DNA from: Candidatus Poseidonia sp.
GTDB lineage: Archaea > Thermoplasmatota > Poseidoniia > Poseidoniales > Poseidoniaceae
NCBI GenBank assembly: GCA_030827745.1
Contig: JAURDW010000012.1
Span: forward strand, 1 to 40,036
Length of the DNA: 40,036 nucleotides
Direction of reading: 5' to 3'
Each line of letters begins with the position of its first letter. Position 1 is the stretch's first letter. The notes beneath the pieces are model-generated. The model was given only the letters and a program-made list of their open reading frames with translations, made no database searches and was not told the origin of the DNA. Positions 2,080 to 10,212 of the stretch are shown here, piece after piece. A program made the translations under genes and the position numbers.

Positions 2080-2760
2080 TCATTCTTTCTTCCTAAAAAA
2101 CGAAACCAGGGGGCTTTCAATCTCCACGTTTTCCTCTTCTTCAAGCCACGACCGCTCAAGCAGGCCCGTGTCCATGTTTTCTCGTTCACGGGCGTCCTCA
2201 ATGGGGTCGGGGACATCGTTCACGGCGTCGCGCAACGCAATGGCTTGGTTGATCACGGCCAGGTGACGGACCATGGTGGGCGTGCGTTCCTTGGCCGAAC
2301 TGAAGTGGCCGAGCACGGGAAAGTCCAGCGTGTCTTGTGCGAGGCTGAAGCCACCAAGCAAGTCATCTGGAACGGTTCGAACACGATGCGGTCCTGGGTC
2401 GCACCAAGTTCCGTCTGCCAAACGAATGCGGAGGTCGGCTTTCCCCATGGGTTCGTCGTCCATGAAGGGATGGTGCATGTTCACGGCCAGCGGGGTGGTG
2501 GCATGGCTGCGGTACCGCAAAGCGATGGCGGTGAGGTTCACCACCAAGGTCAAGCCAGCCACGGCCGAGGCAACGAGCGCATCGATGGAAGCCCACGTCA
2601 GCAGGGCAAAAAGCACGACGGCAAGGCCGGCACTGCCGCCGAGACCCGCATTCCGTCCGTTGATGAATGGCTGTGCGACATGGGTTTGGATGAACGGAAT
2701 CATGTCCGGTGGCAACGAGGTGTCCGAAGGACCCATGCGGTCAGTATCGTGTTGGTTCAT
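2080..2760 (-). CDS. Unknown membrane protein with two TM segments and cytosolic tail
   Basis: A 226-aa protein of unknown function. Two adjacent hydrophobic stretches (about residues 38-75, including GLAVVLFALLTW and AVAGLTLVVNLTAIAL) form a membrane hairpin. A soluble C-terminal region of about 140 residues follows and ends in a highly acidic stretch and FFRKKE. The frame is open for another 35 codons upstream, but those lie over the 3' end of the DUF309 gene. ATG 2760 follows that gene's TGA after one base, so translational coupling is likely. The hairpin-plus-tail layout gives no clear family. Confidence 0.6.
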   Translation of the reverse strand: MNQHDTDRMGPSDTSLPPDMIPFIQTHVAQPFINGRNAGLGGSAGLAVVLFALLTWASIDALVASAVAGLTLVVNLTAIALRYRSHATTPLAVNMHHPFMDDEPMGKADLRIRLADGTWCDPGPHRVRTVPDDLLGGFSLAQDTLDFPVLGHFSSAKERTPTMVRHLAVINQAIALRDAVNDVPDPIEDARERENMDTGLLERSWLEEEENVEIESPLVSFFRKKE

Positions 2761-2761
2761 T

Positions 2762-3154
2762 TCAATCCCTCGCCTGCGGGAGCTGGTGGTCGGCGGCGAC
2801 CAACGACCATGTTCCGACGTCGTCTGCGTAGGCGTTGACCATGGCGAGGTGGGTTTCGATATCAAGGCCCCACATCGAGGTCCAGCCGGCCAACTTCGGC
2901 GCCAATTTCTGCCACTGCTTGGTCACGCCGGCCGTGTTCCTTCGCTGATGATGGAGAAGCAATGCTGCGGTCTGTATCAAGCCTTGGACGAGGAGAATTT
3001 CGGCCTCGGGTGCTTTTCGCTGTTTCAACGATTTCCACATTTCCTCCCACGCTTCATGGGCGTGCCAGAAGCGACCGTTGTTGAAGAGGTCGCAGCCTTC
3101 GGCAAAGTACGCCGATTCCTCGGTGCTCATCGGCACGGGGGCTGGGTCAGGCAT
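2762..3154 (-). CDS. DUF309 family protein
   Basis: A 130-aa helical protein. It carries the DUF309 core: a GCDLFNNGRFWHAHEAWEEMW segment (the F-N-x-G-x-[FY]-x-x-A-H-E-x-W-E pattern) at about 19-39, then LVQGLIQTAALLLHH. Members are small, mostly uncharacterised proteins of bacteria and archaea; the paired His/Glu residues suggest a metal or small-molecule site, but no reaction is established. The gene is followed after one base by the two-TM protein at 2080-2760. The 164 bases upstream, between this gene and the divergent gene at 3319, hold the promoters for both directions, though I see no strong TATA box there. Confidence 0.8.
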   Translation of the reverse strand: MPDPAPVPMSTEESAYFAEGCDLFNNGRFWHAHEAWEEMWKSLKQRKAPEAEILLVQGLIQTAALLLHHQRRNTAGVTKQWQKLAPKLAGWTSMWGLDIETHLAMVNAYADDVGTWSLVAADHQLPQARD

Positions 3155-3318
3155 GGATGTCCGTCAGCCTCGGGGTTTGAAACGCTTCGTTCAATTTGAA
3201 AGTTCATCATGCCTCGGATGGCGAGAGGCTTTGGGAAAGGAAATCCATCGGACCACGGGCCAACCGCCGCACTCTTCAAGAGGGGGTTTGGCCAAGAAGG
3301 CGTGTAAGGTGCAGACGC

Positions 3319-5274
3319 GTGGTTGAGTTGGAGCACGGAGATTTGCTGGAAGAGCGCCGAGGAGGCGTTGATGTCCTGCGGGTTATGGTGCGAAATTTGG
3401 CGGTCCACGAACAATCCGGGGCCGTTGAGATCCGGGCGGCAAACAGCGACGCACCCCGGCACGGTTGGCTCTTGTTTCGTCTCGGTCACCCCGTCATGGC
3501 CTTTCACGAAGGCGAGGTGACCGCCTCCGGACTCGATGCGCTGATGGCCATTGAGGACGATGCGTTGAACATCGATAACGAAGTTCGTTTGTACGAGTTG
3601 ACCATGAACGCCCTGCGAACGGCGATGGCCAACCATCCCGAAAGCGTCCTTCATCTCGAACACCAGCCTTCGGAATCTGAAGACGAGACGTGGTGGTCCT
3701 CTGTTCGTCTGCCAGCCACCTCATGGCGACGTGCAGCGCGGCTGGAAGACATCGAAGAGATGGCGCTGTCCTCCGAAAATCGACGCCGAGCCAGCCCCTC
3801 TATCACCCGGGAAACGCTTTCGCCTGGAGGGGTGTACTTGCTCGACTCGCCCGACCCGCATCCGATGATTCAATTGGCCGTGGAACTGGCAGAACGGGGT
3901 GTTCCGCTCTTGGGCTTGTTTGGACTGCCCCATGCCTCTACGGACGTGACCCAGCGCCTGCCAAGACCCCAATGTTATGCGCTGCTCTCTCCGCACGGTG
4001 GGTACGACGTGCTGGAAGACAGAGCGGCGCTTTTATCGGCGGTGAACGGCTTTCAATGGGGGAACGAACGAAGTGTTCTGGTTCTTGATGGCCTTGACCG
4101 CCTCGGCAACGCCTTTGGAGACGATGTCATGCTGAACCTCTTCCGTTCCCTGTGCGACGGGGCTCGTTTCAACGACCATGCCATCTTGTGTTCCACCGAC
4201 CTTGAAATGTTTGATACCTCTATTCGTCACGGTTTGTTGAGCGAAGTCACCGTCCTCCGCAGGGCCACCCTCGACGCTTGGCTGGATGAGCCCGATTTGC
4301 TTTGGGACGAACCCTTTTTGCTCGCACCCGACGAAGAGGAAGAGCAGTGGTTGGCCGCCCAAATTCAACATCAAGGCGCAAAGTTAGGCGCCGCTGCCTC
4401 CGGCATGGATGCTCCCCTCGAGGGTGGGAGCGTGACGGTCGATGACGAAACGCGCGCAGAGGCCACCGCTGCGCTCACGGAAGTTGTGGGCGGCTGGGAA
4501 GAGAACACCTCACCGACATCAGCTTCCAACGCTGATGGCGCCGTTCCATCCTCGGGTACGCCGATTGGAGAGACGGCGTGGCGCCCTCACGGTGAGGCCT
4601 CTTTCAACGAAGGCCGTTTCATCACCGAATCCCCACGGTTCAAGGGGGAACCCGACCCGTTGGAGCCCACCGCTCCTCCTCGTCGCCCCTTGGTGGAAAA
4701 GAGCGAAATTCTTCCCTCCTCCCCAAAGATGAGGCAGGCACAGCGCCTTCCGAGCAGAAAAAAATCGCCTGCCCTTCCCGAGCCTCGAGCGAGTGACCAA
4801 TCGCGACAAACAGCAGGCCTTGCTCACTTGAATGCTGAGCTCCCTGATTGGCCCGAACCCCACCGGCCTCATGATGCCTATCGCAAAGAAAACATGGACG
4901 CCTTCTCCCGACGCCAAACCGAAGCGGCTGAACGCCAGGGCGCTCGCATGCTTCCCCGTTCGTCGGCTCAGCTTCGGGAGGCGGTCGCCGCTTCACCCGA
5001 GGTCGGCCAGACGGCGCTCCCCTCTCCGCCACGTTTCCAAACCGTGACCTTGCCTTCCGACGGCGATGGAGAACCGCTTCCGAGCAGTTTGATTCCCGTT
5101 AACCGAGAGGCTTCCAAACCTTCCCGAGAAACAGCACAACTCGAGCAAAAAGTCGTTGATATGGAGGCCCTCTACGAGGCGTGGACTGCCTACGAGGAAA
5201 AGGACTTGGAGTCAAGTGCTCTTTACAACGAGAAAGGCGAAGCCCTGAAACGCTACAAGGGTGATGGGCCGTGA
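3319..5274 (+). CDS. DUF4388-like / DUF835-like protein with long disordered C-terminal region
   Basis: A 651-aa soluble protein. Residues about 10-115 resemble the DUF4388 (PatA N-terminal-like) fold: GAVEIRAAN, then HGWLLFRLGHPVMAFHEGE and GLDAL. Residues about 170-320 look like archaeal DUF835: LSPGGVYLLDSPDP, the VLVLDGLDRLGNAFGDD strand-turn-helix and the helix NLFRSLCDGARFND. About 300 residues follow that are rich in Pro, Ser, Glu and Arg and look disordered, ending in a charged helix. The frame opens at a TTG at 3196, but GTG 3319 has TAAGGTG eight bases before it and matches the domain start. Its stop overlaps the GTG of the next gene (GTGA), so the two are coupled. DUF835 proteins are linked to archaeal signalling; the role here is unknown. 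Confidence 0.75.
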   Translation: MVELEHGDLLEERRGGVDVLRVMVRNLAVHEQSGAVEIRAANSDAPRHGWLLFRLGHPVMAFHEGEVTASGLDALMAIEDDALNIDNEVRLYELTMNALRTAMANHPESVLHLEHQPSESEDETWWSSVRLPATSWRRAARLEDIEEMALSSENRRRASPSITRETLSPGGVYLLDSPDPHPMIQLAVELAERGVPLLGLFGLPHASTDVTQRLPRPQCYALLSPHGGYDVLEDRAALLSAVNGFQWGNERSVLVLDGLDRLGNAFGDDVMLNLFRSLCDGARFNDHAILCSTDLEMFDTSIRHGLLSEVTVLRRATLDAWLDEPDLLWDEPFLLAPDEEEEQWLAAQIQHQGAKLGAAASGMDAPLEGGSVTVDDETRAEATAALTEVVGGWEENTSPTSASNADGAVPSSGTPIGETAWRPHGEASFNEGRFITESPRFKGEPDPLEPTAPPRRPLVEKSEILPSSPKMRQAQRLPSRKKSPALPEPRASDQSRQTAGLAHLNAELPDWPEPHRPHDAYRKENMDAFSRRQTEAAERQGARMLPRSSAQLREAVAASPEVGQTALPSPPRFQTVTLPSDGDGEPLPSSLIPVNREASKPSRETAQLEQKVVDMEALYEAWTAYEEKDLESSALYNEKGEALKRYKGDGP

Positions 5275-7310
5275 GCACGCCAACCAAACTGCGTTCGGTC
5301 CTTGAAGACGCAAAGCGACACCTCGGCGAGCGGGCGACTGAACCCCCGTTGCCCTCAGCGCCTCTGCAGGACAAGGCCAAGACCAATCACGAACCGGCTC
5401 GCTCAAAATTGAACACGCTTCGAGGTGTGGCCTCGGTTGAACCACGCCGCCTGTCGGTGTTTCAGCGCGTCGGTGTTCCCCAGCGGCCCACCTACGACTT
5501 GATCGCTGAACGCGTTCTTGGACCGGATGTCCCCCAACACCGTACGTTTCTCGACAAAGGTTCAACCTACGCTGACCATGTCGCCACACGCTTGCGTCAC
5601 CTGCAGGAGCGCCTGAACGCCCAACCGATTGACGAGGAAAACCTCGGCCGAGAATCGGATTTTGTGGGTGTCGAAAACGATGGGCGCCCCGTTTGGAGTC
5701 AGGTGCTGGCGCACCAGCGTGGACGAGCGTCGCATGCACTCCTTGGCGAAAGCGAATTTGACTCTACGCCTCTGCCATCTCCCGCTGTGGCCCACCGGGG
5801 GCCTCTTCCGAAATGGCCCGCTCGGTTATCGTGGTCTGCCCAAAGGACCTTCAAGCAATGGTTCGTCGCTGAAGAAAACTTTGACGCCACGCGCCTGTGC
5901 GAGGCGGTGGTGGACGGTCCAGGACAACGCTTCAACCCCCTCCTTCTTTCGGGGGAAGCCGCCGCAGGCACTTCGCTGCTTCTCCATGCCACCGGTCAGG
6001 CGTTGCTTCGCCGAAACGAAGGGCACGTCCTCATCGTCACTGCGGCCGACCTTCACGGTGTCGACCCAACCGACGCTCTCTGGCAGGAAGCGTTGCCGGA
6101 TGCAACGGCCCTGCTTGTGGACGATGTCCACATGTTTGCAACGCATGAGGTGTGGAAGCACCAGCTCGGGGTGCTTTTGGACCAGGCTCTGAACATGGGT
6201 GTCCATGTGGTGGCGGGCGGTCGATTGCCCATCGAGGCCTTTCCCTCCTCGCGCTTGAAAGAGGTGATGCTCCATGCGACAAAGGCCTCCATTCATCCAC
6301 CCTCGGTCGGGACACTCATGGCCTATGCTCGGTGGCGGTGCGTGCAAAAAAACATGCTGTTGGCCGACACCCACCTCGCCCAAGTGGCCCGCGAATCTTC
6401 AGCAAGTTGGTCCAGCGTTGATGGTCGCCTGGACCGCATCGCCCTCGCTCTTGAAGGGGGGGCCGTCCTCCTGGACCACGACGACCTCCATGTCGTGCTT
6501 GGTGATGGTCCTGCCCCCGAGGATTCCGACCTTGAACGCCAACGTGTTGAAGACGTGGCTGCGGCGATGGTTGGCGATGTCCTCGACAGCGTTTATGCAA
6601 GCGTTGAGACCGGCGGCATTGATTTGAAATCCAAGATTGAGCCTTGGGGCGAGGACGATTATGTCCCGCCTTCCCTTGACGAGGACCTCGCAGCCTCCCA
6701 CCACACCACCTCCTTTGAAAACCGCCTCCGTGAGACCATTGAGCATGTCACGCCCGGCCGTCCATCGACCTTGGACGTTCATGAACGCGACCAGTACTTG
6801 GTCTCCAATCGGGAAACGCTGAACGTTGCGGACGTTGAGCGGGCCGTGGATATCCTCATCGACCTTGACGAAGGCATCGATGCTCGGTTGCAGACAACCG
6901 AGCAAACCAGCGTCACTGCCGCCACCGAGTTGAGCAGCCTCGAAGAGAGCATGGTGGCGCTCGGTCAGCGGGCGTTGGAGGCGGATATTGACGAACTCAT
7001 CACCATTGCCGACGAACTTCGCACCATCGAGGAGCGCTTGGTTGAACTTGACCCCGAGCGGGAGCCGTTGCCGCCGTATGAAGAGAACCTCCCCGCTCAG
7101 GTCAAGCGAAAGGTCGGCCGGCGACGGGCACCAAAGAAAACGCCCCCCTCCACCTCCCCCCTCGATTCGTACGAGCCTGAAGGTGAGTGGAACATCGACG
7201 ATGTGGGCATCTCGGCGGACGACCTCCTGCAGGAAGAAGCCAGTCCCAAAACCCCGACACGCCTCGCGCGTCTCCGTCCAAAAACGGTGTTGGTGGGTGA
7301 AGAGGAATGA
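5271..7310 (+). CDS. Large protein with a DnaA/Hda-like AAA+ domain (degenerate Walker A)
   Basis: A 679-aa protein starting at GTG within the GTGA overlap. Residues about 190-410 follow the bacterial DnaA ATPase core in order: TFKQWFVAEEN (DnaA TFxxFVxGxxN), FNPLLLSG before the P-loop, ALLVDDVHMF as Walker B (D284, D285), a GGRLP sensor-1-like strand, SSRLKE where DnaA has its arginine-finger segment, SIHPPSVGTLMAY (DnaA IxPPxxxTR) and a VDGRLDRIALAL lid helix. The P-loop reads GEAAAGTS (228-235), with Thr in place of the lysine. The sensor-2 arginine is also not evident. No DnaA domain IV helix-turn-helix is seen; the C-terminal 270 residues are acidic and helical. ATP hydrolysis is doubtful. 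Archaeal initiation normally uses Orc1/Cdc6, so its role is open. Confidence 0.75.
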   Translation: MSTPTKLRSVLEDAKRHLGERATEPPLPSAPLQDKAKTNHEPARSKLNTLRGVASVEPRRLSVFQRVGVPQRPTYDLIAERVLGPDVPQHRTFLDKGSTYADHVATRLRHLQERLNAQPIDEENLGRESDFVGVENDGRPVWSQVLAHQRGRASHALLGESEFDSTPLPSPAVAHRGPLPKWPARLSWSAQRTFKQWFVAEENFDATRLCEAVVDGPGQRFNPLLLSGEAAAGTSLLLHATGQALLRRNEGHVLIVTAADLHGVDPTDALWQEALPDATALLVDDVHMFATHEVWKHQLGVLLDQALNMGVHVVAGGRLPIEAFPSSRLKEVMLHATKASIHPPSVGTLMAYARWRCVQKNMLLADTHLAQVARESSASWSSVDGRLDRIALALEGGAVLLDHDDLHVVLGDGPAPEDSDLERQRVEDVAAAMVGDVLDSVYASVETGGIDLKSKIEPWGEDDYVPPSLDEDLAASHHTTSFENRLRETIEHVTPGRPSTLDVHERDQYLVSNRETLNVADVERAVDILIDLDEGIDARLQTTEQTSVTAATELSSLEESMVALGQRALEADIDELITIADELRTIEERLVELDPEREPLPPYEENLPAQVKRKVGRRRAPKKTPPSTSPLDSYEPEGEWNIDDVGISADDLLQEEASPKTPTRLARLRPKTVLVGEEE

Positions 7311-7783
7311 GGGCGCCTTGGTGGATGGAAGGCGTGGCCTTCCAGTGCCAGCCCAACTGCGGACGGTGCTGCGATCAACCAGGAGGGATCGTTTACCTCT
7401 CACCCGACGATGCTCAACGGTTGGCGCATCACGCCGGTCTCGACGTGGAGGCTTGGTTGGAACGGGATGCTCGCCAGACCTTCGACGGGCGCTATGTCCT
7501 CAAGAGCCGAGAGGACGACGGTGTCTGCATTCACCTCAACGAGCAGAAGCAATGTTCCGTCTACGAGGTTCGACCACAACAATGCAAGGCCTTTCCGTGG
7601 TGGGGTGAGAACCTCGCCACACCTGCGGCATGGGGCAACACGAAGCGTTCCTGTCCCGGAATCGATGCAGAGGATGCCCTTGTTGTGGACGGTCAAACCA
7701 TTCGCCTGCATGTCTTCGCCGACCGCACCTCCACCAAAGGCTTCCGCGAATGGCCCGTGGTGAAGAGACGATGGAACCGTTGA
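7307..7783 (+). CDS. YkgJ-family CxxCC metal-cluster protein
   Basis: A 158-aa protein of the YkgJ zinc/iron-chelating family. It shows CQPNCGRCC near residues 14-22, the family's first cysteine group, then CIHLNEQKQCSVYEVRPQQC with the conserved [YF]xxRPxxC ending, a KAFPWW stretch and a later CPG. The family is thought to bind Zn2+ or an iron cluster; substrates are mostly unknown. The ATG overlaps the TGA of the DnaA-like gene (ATGA), so this is the third gene of a coupled operon. A hairpin and T-run follow its stop. Confidence 0.85.
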   Translation: MRAPWWMEGVAFQCQPNCGRCCDQPGGIVYLSPDDAQRLAHHAGLDVEAWLERDARQTFDGRYVLKSREDDGVCIHLNEQKQCSVYEVRPQQCKAFPWWGENLATPAAWGNTKRSCPGIDAEDALVVDGQTIRLHVFADRTSTKGFREWPVVKRRWNR

Positions 7784-7848: not shown

Positions 7849-7900
7849 GAAACATGGCTGTCGGCGTCTTTGAGGGCGAAGAATGGAAGGAGATGAACCG

Positions 7901-9049
7901 ATGTTCACCGTCAACCGCTCTCATCTCAACACCGGGCTTCGTGGCGTTCCCGTCGGCACCTGCCGCACCTCGTTCGTGACCCCTACCGAAGGTGTCCACT
8001 ACTGCGGCTATCCAATCGCCGAGTTGGCCCATTTCTCCCCCGAAGACATCGTGTATCTCTTGTTCCACAAGGAATTGCCGACCCCCTCCCAAGCCGAGGC
8101 CTTCCGCGCAGACTTGGCGTCCCGTGGGGCGGTTCCAAGCAGCGTCGCAGCCGTGTTTCACACCTTGCCTCGCGACGGCCACCCCATGGACTGGTTGAGC
8201 GTGGGCATTCATACCCTCGGCATGTTGGACACGACAGGCGATTGGAAAGAGGATGCCCTCAACCTCATCGCACGAATGCCTCGTTTGATGGCGCTTCTCT
8301 TCCGAATTCGAGAAGGCCGAGGCGAGAACATTCCCGAAGACGACCTTTCAGCAAGCATGGTTCAGCGCTTTGTGCGCACCCTTGACCTCGAGAGGGTTGA
8401 CCAGGACCTGATGGAAAAAATCCTCGCCACATACCTTGTGCTTCACATGGACCACGGCGGCGGCAACTTGTCCACCTTCACAGGGAAAGCCGTGGCCTCC
8501 GGTCACGCCACCGTGTACGCCTCCATCGCTGGAGCCATGAACGCCCTTTCCGGACCGCTTCACGGCCGAGCCAACCAATCCTGTCTTGAATTCGTTCTCC
8601 GAATTGGGACCAGCGATCCCGATGAAGTCGAGGCTTTTGTTCGCGGTGAACTTGCTGCCAAACGCCCTGTTTTTGGTTTTGGCCATGCCGTCCTGCGAGC
8701 AGAAGACCCCCGGGCTACGGTGCAATTTGACCTTGGCGAGAAACTTTGCCCCGACGATGAGAATTTCAAAATCATTCGTACGTTGAGAGAAGTGGCACCG
8801 CGTGTCCTTGCTGAAAATCCCAAGATTTCCAATCCGAATGCGAACGTCGACATCGCAAGCGGAGCCTTGCTCCACCATGTCGGTTTCACCGACCCGACCT
8901 ACTATACGACCTTCTTTGGGTGGGCTCGCGTGGCTGGCATTGGAGCCCAAATCATCGATGAGCGTACCGTCCTGCGAGGTGGAAAGGGCACGCCCATCTA
9001 TCGGCCAAAATACATCGCAGAAGAACAATCCCTACGTCATCTTGAGTGA
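7901..9049 (+). CDS. gltA: Citrate synthase
   Basis: A 382-aa citrate synthase that condenses oxaloacetate with acetyl-CoA at the entry of the TCA cycle. The catalytic triad can be placed: H221 in SGPLHGRAN, H262 in FGFGHAVLR and D317 in NVDIASG. The HMDHGGGNLSTFT segment and the C-terminal arginine motif RGGKGTPIYRPK are also family-typical. ATG 7883 is in frame, but ATG 7901 is better supported because AAGGAG precedes it at optimal spacing. The last 13 bases overlap the 3' end of the convergent phosphodiesterase gene. No other TCA gene is in the window. Confidence 0.92.
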   Translation: MFTVNRSHLNTGLRGVPVGTCRTSFVTPTEGVHYCGYPIAELAHFSPEDIVYLLFHKELPTPSQAEAFRADLASRGAVPSSVAAVFHTLPRDGHPMDWLSVGIHTLGMLDTTGDWKEDALNLIARMPRLMALLFRIREGRGENIPEDDLSASMVQRFVRTLDLERVDQDLMEKILATYLVLHMDHGGGNLSTFTGKAVASGHATVYASIAGAMNALSGPLHGRANQSCLEFVLRIGTSDPDEVEAFVRGELAAKRPVFGFGHAVLRAEDPRATVQFDLGEKLCPDDENFKIIRTLREVAPRVLAENPKISNPNANVDIASGALLHHVGFTDPTYYTTFFGWARVAGIGAQIIDERTVLRGGKGTPIYRPKYIAEEQSLRHLE

Positions 9050-10212
9050 CGTGCAAGGACCGGTCGAGCGGTCTTTCCACTTCCTCGATGTCCGATGAGC
9101 CGAGGTGCGGACCTCGGTGGCGTGGCCTCGGTGGCCGAATCAAGGATGGCCTCTACTTCACCTGGCCAATTCCATGCCGTTTTCCACTCGCTAACCAGCA
9201 TCCGGCGTCGGGACTTGTCGGCTTCAGCCCAAGTAGGGGTGTCAGCGTTCAGTTCAGCGAGCAGGTCAAGATGGTTTTCTTGGCTCGTTGCTTCAAGCCG
9301 TGCCCATTGGGCTTCATCAAGCGGTTGCGTAGCCGGTTGCCTCCACCGGGGATGGCCCGAGGGCAACCATGTCAATTCCGGATCGGCTTTGTCCGTCAGC
9401 CCCGTGAGCCCCGCCCTCAAGAGGGAGTGTTCAATGTCCGTTCGAGCGGGCCAAACATACGTCGGCATCCCTCTTCGTTCACGATTCAGGCGAAGTCGTC
9501 CGCCACCATGAAGCCCAACGGAACGCCCAAGAGGCAGGTGTTGTGTGGGTGATTGAAAATATTCCACGGCACACGGGAGCATCGAACTTCCCTGTTTTTG
9601 GTGCCGTTTCACGAGGCGACGAAACGGTGTGGTGAGGTATTGAGGAAAGACCTGCATCCGCTGAGTTGTCCGATTCCCGTAGGGTGGGATGTAGGGAATC
9701 AATGCTGCCCACGGCCGGGGTGTGCCAGCCAAAGCCGCCGATGCTGGCATCCCTTTGTGGAATGCATAGAACACGGTGTTCTCTATCGGGATGGACCTGA
9801 GGTCAAGCGCTTCATGCGCGAGTTGCATGGCTTGGGCAACGTGGCGGTTGTGCTGCCGACGCCCGAAGTAGCCTCCACCGGAGGGTGCCTTCGGATGCGG
9901 TCGCTTGATTTCGATGCACCCCATTTTTCCATTTTCGGCCCACTGACGTTGGACTTCTGGGTCGTCCAACAAATCATCAAAGGCGAGAAAGCCGAAGTCC
10001 ACCAAATCATCAAGTTGCCACGCCTCCACCCACACTGGCTTCCCTTCCAGATGGAATTTGGGAACCGAAACATCCCGGTCATGGTGGACCACCAGTTGAC
10101 GGTCAGCGGTGATGCGAACATCAAACTCGATGCCGTCAAAGTGCTCAATGCCGTGGCGAAGACTCGCAAGCGTGTTTTCTGGCGGTTGGTGCCAGCGGTC
10201 TTCTCCCTCCAT
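9037..10212 (-). CDS. Glycerophosphodiester phosphodiesterase-like protein, apparently circularly permuted
   Basis: A 391-aa TIM-barrel protein of the GDPD family, which hydrolyses glycerophosphodiesters to glycerol-3-phosphate and an alcohol. The catalytic set is present but out of order. E12-N13 (PPENTLASLRHG), E29-x-D31 (IEFDV) and H44-D45 come first, then CIEIKRP, the VFYAFHK strand and YVWPARTDI...GLTGLTDKADPE, which is the usual barrel end. After about 85 more residues the protein ends in RLIGHRGSGKT (H375, R376), the strand that opens ordinary GDPDs. No HRG strand precedes the ATG: an in-frame TGA lies 27 bases upstream of it. GHRGSGKT also fits a P-loop pattern, but at the extreme C-terminus that is not meaningful. 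The gene is convergent with gltA. Confidence 0.75.
   Translation of the reverse strand: MEGEDRWHQPPENTLASLRHGIEHFDGIEFDVRITADRQLVVHHDRDVSVPKFHLEGKPVWVEAWQLDDLVDFGFLAFDDLLDDPEVQRQWAENGKMGCIEIKRPHPKAPSGGGYFGRRQHNRHVAQAMQLAHEALDLRSIPIENTVFYAFHKGMPASAALAGTPRPWAALIPYIPPYGNRTTQRMQVFPQYLTTPFRRLVKRHQKQGSSMLPCAVEYFQSPTQHLPLGRSVGLHGGGRLRLNRERRGMPTYVWPARTDIEHSLLRAGLTGLTDKADPELTWLPSGHPRWRQPATQPLDEAQWARLEATSQENHLDLLAELNADTPTWAEADKSRRRMLVSEWKTAWNWPGEVEAILDSATEATPPRSAPRLIGHRGSGKTARPVLARHSR

Follow-up and report, generated by a model that had tools for sequence, protein, structure and literature searches.

A DnaA-like protein with a DUF835-type partner in Candidatus Poseidonia: a candidate archaeal regulatory adapter

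DnaA is the hallmark initiator of replication in bacteria, while archaea use Orc1/Cdc6. Here we describe two overlapping genes, A and B, in a stretch of 40,036 nucleotides from Candidatus Poseidonia sp. (Poseidoniales; assembly GCA_030827745.1, contig JAURDW010000012.1, positions 1 to 40,036), which is called the window below. Gene B encodes a protein with a DnaA-like AAA+ core and gene A encodes its presumed partner. Labels beginning with G, C, L, f and g denote genomes, contigs, loci, families and genera of our data set. The features of both genes, in window positions, are as follows.

5271..7310, + strand: gene B, DnaA-domain-III-like protein of 679 residues with a GTG start (open reading frame (ORF), Pfam, NCBIfam, fold match)
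5823..6476, + strand: DnaA domain III core of gene B, about residues 185-402 (Pfam and NCBIfam matches, fold match)
5952..5975, + strand: degenerate Walker A motif GEAAAGTS, residues 228-235, with Thr234 at the lysine position (alignments, census)
6111..6125, + strand: Walker B motif LLVDD, residues 281-285, Asp-Asp kept (census)
6252..6266, + strand: RLKEV, residues 328-332, at the place of DnaA RLxSR; the Arg finger is lost (Val332) (census)
6411..6413, + strand: sensor-II position, Ser381 (census)
6825..7049, + strand: predicted long helical hairpin of gene B, residues 519-593 (block means of the predicted local distance difference test (pLDDT) 75-93 in the model; conserved columns)
3319..5274, + strand: gene A, partner of B; its ORF opens at 3196, the start at 3319 was set by homology, and it overlaps B by GTGA
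3319..3657, + strand: N-domain of gene A, residues 1-113, common to the N-termini of single-chain relatives (hidden Markov model (HMM) of the single-chain N-domain, E 9.9e-7; modelled as alpha/beta)
3826..4323, + strand: DUF835-like domain of gene A, about residues 170-335, a degenerate KaiC/RecA-like fold (KaiC-like model; Pfam DUF835 in orthologues)
4369..5271, + strand: C-terminal part of gene A, rich in Pro, Ser and Glu and poorly conserved (sequence, alignment)

DnaA domain III in gene B

By its fold and the order of its motifs, the core of gene B is DnaA domain III, as a first-pass annotation made from the sequence had proposed for residues of about 190-410. Bac_DnaA (PF00308), with a cut-off of 23 bits, matches the protein at 31.7 bits and E 2e-7. 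Apart from it, the Pfam listing at E up to 1 contains nSTAND_NTPase5 alone, and a STAND assignment, which the annotation had considered as the competing one, falls below both its own cut-off and the Bac_DnaA score (17.6 bits vs a cut-off of 34). NCBIfam models give 48.7 bits for DnaA (TIGR00362, residues 190-391) and 30.2 bits for Hda (TIGR03420), both far from their equivalog cut-offs of 343.9 and 194.8, respectively. Two DnaA chains are the sole PDB sequence matches (phmmer, E up to 1). The AlphaFold model was computed on an alignment of 75 sequences; its pLDDT is 68 overall and 78-94 as block means over residues 181-400. It superposes best on domain III of B. subtilis DnaA, with a template modelling (TM) score of 0.85 by target length, and PDB matches ranked 1 to 17 are DnaA or Hda entries throughout. 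Gene B is the single Bac_DnaA match in the window's own genome, which is 81.5% complete.

Neither domain I nor domain IV of DnaA is listed for the gene B protein (Pfam, E up to 1). The absence of domain IV, already noted in the annotation, thus stands, but it does not represent degeneration of gene B, since models of these domains are likewise missing among the matches listed at E up to 0.1 for nine relatives from outside Poseidoniales (25 of 29 families being listed for one of them). The same holds for one other Poseidoniales B protein.

The A-B pair and its single-chain relatives

The organization of the two genes was compared in 80 loci, the window and 79 others taken from records named Poseidonia sp., Candidatus Poseidoniaceae and other Marine Group II. 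In 75 of them B is preceded by gene A, the spacing being -4 in 61 loci, -1 in five, -55 in four, -31 in three, -22 in one and +515 in one; in the remaining five the contig starts no more than 608 bases before B. Gene B was matched in 111 of the 115 genomes of the family and in 20 of the 21 better ones (some matches are weak or partial), with no internal stop among the matches listed. Order-wide profile searches of 154 genomes matched A in 92, B in 92, both in 90 and each alone in two. The number for A is slightly generous, the listed match in G036, G092 and G252 being another DUF835 gene. Several genera of family f2 matched neither. The DnaA relative, regarded in the annotation as unexpected in an archaeon, is therefore real, but it is no oddity of a single genome; as shown below, 12 further families have strong Bac_DnaA matches as well.

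Pfam DUF835 was found above its cut-off in all eight gene A orthologues scanned (8 of 20, all from other genera). In a census of archaeal two-component systems, DUF835 is labelled iKaiC (PMC5847659), and it is regarded here as an inactive KaiC-like domain. Two-component proteins of that census share DUF835 with gene A orthologues and with the single-chain relatives; the A-B family differs from them by its DnaA AAA+ core and by having no receiver or PAS domain listed. A model of gene A (350 residues, mean pLDDT 78, predicted TM score 0.54) gives the DUF835 part a fold resembling KaiC CI and a RecA-family ATPase with E just above 1e-3. KaiC and archaeal KaiC-like ATPases are thus similar in fold, but no match of the fold search reached E 0.001 or better, and TM scores range from 0.16 to 0.41 by target length among the matches listed. 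DUF2226 and DUF4388 were rejected as identities of the N-domain, neither model scoring above cut-off in any of 60 genomes or matching at all in G000. Many Poseidoniales genomes carry a further DUF835 gene away from A-B, with a frame of about 280-440 residues (G003:C31:34814-35161, G011:C1:1265717-1266079 and others).

Outside the order, the DnaA core occurs in a different arrangement. A search of the phylum found Bac_DnaA at E 0.001 or better in 104 of 292 genomes and above cut-off in 91, some of these being weak hits in which the P-loop region of a different ATPase is matched; 12 Thermoplasmatota families outside Poseidoniales have matches at E 1e-20 or better. Seven of nine relatives scanned with Pfam (f8, f24, f30, f37, f38, f42, f43) contain Bac_DnaA followed by DUF835 in one chain, and the family search located DUF835 also in the f18 chain, inside the frame of L092. 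In single chains the N-domain is followed by a helical part, in which a zinc ribbon is often present, and then by DnaA domain III and DUF835. With gene A as its sole source, an HMM matches the chains of f8, f18, f30, f37, f38, f42 and f43, seven families in all, on both sides of the DnaA core. Whole-protein E values are 1e-27 to 1e-41, and independent E values are 5e-4 to 1e-15 for the N-terminal stretch and 3e-17 to 1e-30 for the C-terminal one. Partial matches were obtained for f24 (C-terminal, DUF835 flank only) and f33 (L082, N-terminal flank only). The reverse comparison is consistent with this. An HMM was made from nine single-chain N-domains, whose own matches follow from this construction, and run on 811 ORF translations; it recognizes 20 of the 21 gene A proteins, and all its remaining matches are chains with a DnaA core.

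Since the same parts occur as one chain in seven families, genes A and B appear to be a split version of the single-chain protein, with the DnaA core placed in a gene of its own, so that their products are predicted to meet in a complex. The partner gene with its DUF835 domain and the single-chain relatives are the main context missed by the annotation. Intermediate arrangements were also seen. In the second copy of f33 (L083) a DUF835 gene adjoins the DnaA gene, and in f20 (L085) it is two genes away.

Two side observations concern these relatives. In L085 (L085:8451-10336), a KaiC-like gene and a gene combining seven transmembrane segments with DUF835 lie downstream of a DnaA-core gene. In the f33 and f11 proteins (L082:9975-14198, 1407 residues; L099:6834-10589, 1251 residues), the DnaA core is preceded by numerous helical repeats bearing a motif of the WxxxGY type, as judged by eye.

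The ATPase motor and its evolution

The annotation had reported a P-loop GEAAAGTS with Thr in place of Lys, and alignments as well as a motif census of 98 distinct Poseidoniales B proteins confirm Thr234. The gene is widespread, and the residue at the lysine position varies: Lys in 42 proteins, Arg in 29, Cys in 23, Ile in two, Gly in one and Thr in one, the window. The Arg finger (position 332) is Arg in none of the 98. Walker B aspartates are retained, D284 in 94 and D285 in 95. The sensor-II Arg, described as not evident, is indeed replaced by Ser381 in the window; this is not a general feature, as 78 of the 98 proteins have Arg. DnaA cores from other Thermoplasmatota loci (n=19) keep the Walker A Lys in 19, the Arg finger in 14 and the sensor-II Arg in 13 cases. 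In closer lineages these cores are 42-67% identical to B. subtilis domain III, and in f24, f43 and two further copies the identity is 30-36%. Compared with bacterial DnaA, gene B of the window has thus the same AAA+ core fold and motif order, but it is devoid of the Walker A Lys (T234), the Arg finger (V332) and the sensor-II Arg (S381), no domain I or IV was found in it, and its core is combined with an N-domain and DUF835.

Changes at the lysine position were followed on a tree of 119 rows, comprising 97 of the 98 B cores, 19 other Thermoplasmatota cores and three bacterial ones. The tree is midpoint-rooted and joins long branches, and it was used solely for the lysine-position pattern inside Poseidoniales. 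Lys is absent from the Walker A position throughout the window's clade, which comprises 26 rows. Because four changes of the Lys label are needed, at least three of them forced by well supported branches, the lysine position is judged to have changed repeatedly in Poseidoniales, with perhaps one reversion to Lys (L144).

A possible parallel with gene A was considered. For 92 of the 98 B proteins a gene A was available for scoring, and median DUF835 scores by lysine-position residue of B are 49.4 bits for Lys, 47.3 for Arg and 13.6 for Cys, with 7.9 for the window. A general link between lysine loss and DUF835 decay was rejected: the drop occurs in one clade, the Arg-bearing median is as high as given above, and the lone Cys row outside the genus scores 42.4 bits. 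The lowest scores belong to the window's clade, and the drop therefore counts as one event.

Ratios of nonsynonymous to synonymous substitution rates (dN/dS) were calculated for 17 pairs, of which two, both with Lys, were not evaluable. In 11 lysine-less pairs of the window's clade the core has dN/dS of 0.03-0.12 and the gene as a whole 0.06-0.14, five of the 11 being uncertain due to whole-gene dS above 1. Because of these low ratios, we conclude that gene B is under strong purifying selection and not in decay.

A putative regulatory adapter and the competing explanations

The explanation we favour, with a probability of roughly 0.6, is that A and B constitute a conserved regulatory adapter complex and do not start replication, B serving as its DnaA-type scaffold and, in Poseidonia, as a pseudo-ATPase. 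A and B would form a stable complex; B would contribute the DnaA-type AAA+ assembly core, and binding or output would fall to two modules of A, its N-domain and its KaiC-like domain. The AAA+ core is probably still an ATP switch in most single-chain relatives. B has lost the Arg finger throughout Poseidoniales and, in Poseidonia, also the P-loop lysine; because of these two losses, Poseidonia B may be a scaffold no longer dependent on ATP hydrolysis. As an adapter, A-B would regulate some cell process. The view of the annotation, a degenerate DnaA relative in an archaeon with a probably structural or regulatory role, is supported.

A role as chromosomal initiator is unlikely, since canonical Orc1/Cdc6 is present above cut-off in all 19 genomes chosen, the window's own included, and lies far from A-B in a one-contig Marine Group II genome (Orc1/Cdc6 genes at 1.83 and 0.70 Mb, A-B at 1.52 Mb, about 0.31 and 0.82 Mb apart).

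Several observations weigh against the adapter explanation. P-loop Gly233 and Ser/Thr235 are kept in all 98 B proteins, and since these residues and the Walker B Asp (94-95 of 98) persist, nucleotide binding by B may persist too. The window's gene A has no Pfam match to DUF835. An HMM made from eight single-chain DUF835 domains also matches other DUF835-like proteins; under default filters it recognizes 18 of the 21 gene A proteins, and the three without a match are those of the window, L072 and L064. With filters off the window's domain reaches the 7.9 bits given above, so its assignment stays below threshold and depends on orthology. Two of the nine relatives scanned with Pfam (f33, f11) have no DUF835 in the chain. 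Finally, neighbours and co-occurrence point to no particular output or process for A-B; the genes that follow it in Poseidoniales, coding for a CxxCxxCC protein, citrate synthase and GDPD, offer no functional hint. An archaellum link was rejected, archaellin being present in 99 of 154 Poseidoniales genomes without following A-B. Among the matches listed, genus g17 has A-B and no archaellin, and g14 and g21 have archaellin and no A-B.

The strongest competitor, still unlikely in our opinion, is a regulator of replication or of the chromosome, in which the DnaA core, with or without A, would tune replication through Orc1/Cdc6, gyrase or recombination proteins, in a manner similar to the action of Hda on bacterial DnaA. 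Hda is indeed among the nearest folds of B. Bacterial dnaA is often located near gyrB-gyrA, and in four families (f30, f37, f38, f42; L089, L090, L093, L094) thiC, gyrB and gyrA are found close to the single-chain gene, as judged by reading the ORFs, gyrB being confirmed in two loci and ThiC in one. A RadB recombinase gene adjoins the single-chain gene in f8 and f18 (L091:3575-4267, L092:7346-8029). The gyrase neighbourhood, however, may be a single inherited arrangement, the Poseidoniales neighbours reveal no link to DNA, and Orc1/Cdc6 is distant from A-B in the one-contig genome. In a pattern search without a shuffle control, the PCNA-box pattern occurs in none of the 98 B proteins and a loose bacterial clamp-like pattern in 14. 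The analogy with Hda, put forward in the annotation, is weak. Hda likewise has a DnaA-III-type core without domain IV, but gene B stays far below the Hda cut-off, is much longer and has a partner gene.

It is less probable still that B is an active, although unusual, ATPase, in which Arg, Cys or Thr permits nucleotide binding and B serves as an ATP switch in all Poseidoniales. The retained Walker B aspartates, the sensor-II Arg of most B proteins and the 42 proteins with Lys agree with it; the universal loss of the Arg finger disagrees, as does the window with its Thr and without the sensor-II Arg. A decaying relic, a former ATPase heading to loss with no selected role, could account for the repeated lysine-position changes, the Arg finger loss, the weakest gene A DUF835 in the window's genus and the f2 genera without both genes, but it is very improbable given the lack of internal stops among the matches listed, the low dN/dS of the core, the invariant P-loop Gly and Ser/Thr and the preserved gene pair.

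A defence function was rejected, A and B having no PADLOC match at E up to 0.01; two single-chain relatives scanned gave matches down to 3.5e-7 and 4.9e-10, read as putative generic AAA+/coiled-coil ones. A search of viral contigs with the single window protein found no close relative of gene B. No description of a DnaA-DUF835 archaeal family was found in the accessible literature on archaeal DnaA, DUF835, KaiC, Thermoplasmata and Poseidoniales, in which subscription journals are thinly covered.

If the adapter explanation is true, a large archaeal family joining DnaA and KaiC-like cores has put the DnaA motor to a use other than replication initiation, in organisms that already possess another initiator. 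The P-loop series Lys, Arg, Cys and Thr would be a natural experiment on the passage from ATPase to scaffold, and relatives with an intact motor across Thermoplasmatota would make the function testable if any of them is in culture. We also consider, as a tentative and rather doubtful extension, an archaeal regulatory machine that unites a bacterial-type DnaA core and an inactive KaiC core as one unit. In several Thermoplasmatota families it would be an ATP switch made of a single chain, and in Poseidonia a complex encoded by two genes, with both NTPase cores inactive; it may have come from bacteria together with gyrase and be tied to the state of the chromosome.

In the window, A-B is followed by genes for a CxxCxxCC protein (7307-7783), citrate synthase (7883-9049) and GDPD (9037-10212), named by Pfam. 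Their order is much alike downstream of A-B in many Poseidoniales loci, and in several f2 loci the CxxCxxCC gene is on the opposite strand. Upstream, a frame without Pfam match at 2080-2865 on the minus strand is by eye a likely real gene, which looks like a membrane protein and resembles a gene upstream of A in relatives. The ORF at 2273-3199 on the plus strand appears to be an antisense frame opposite to it.

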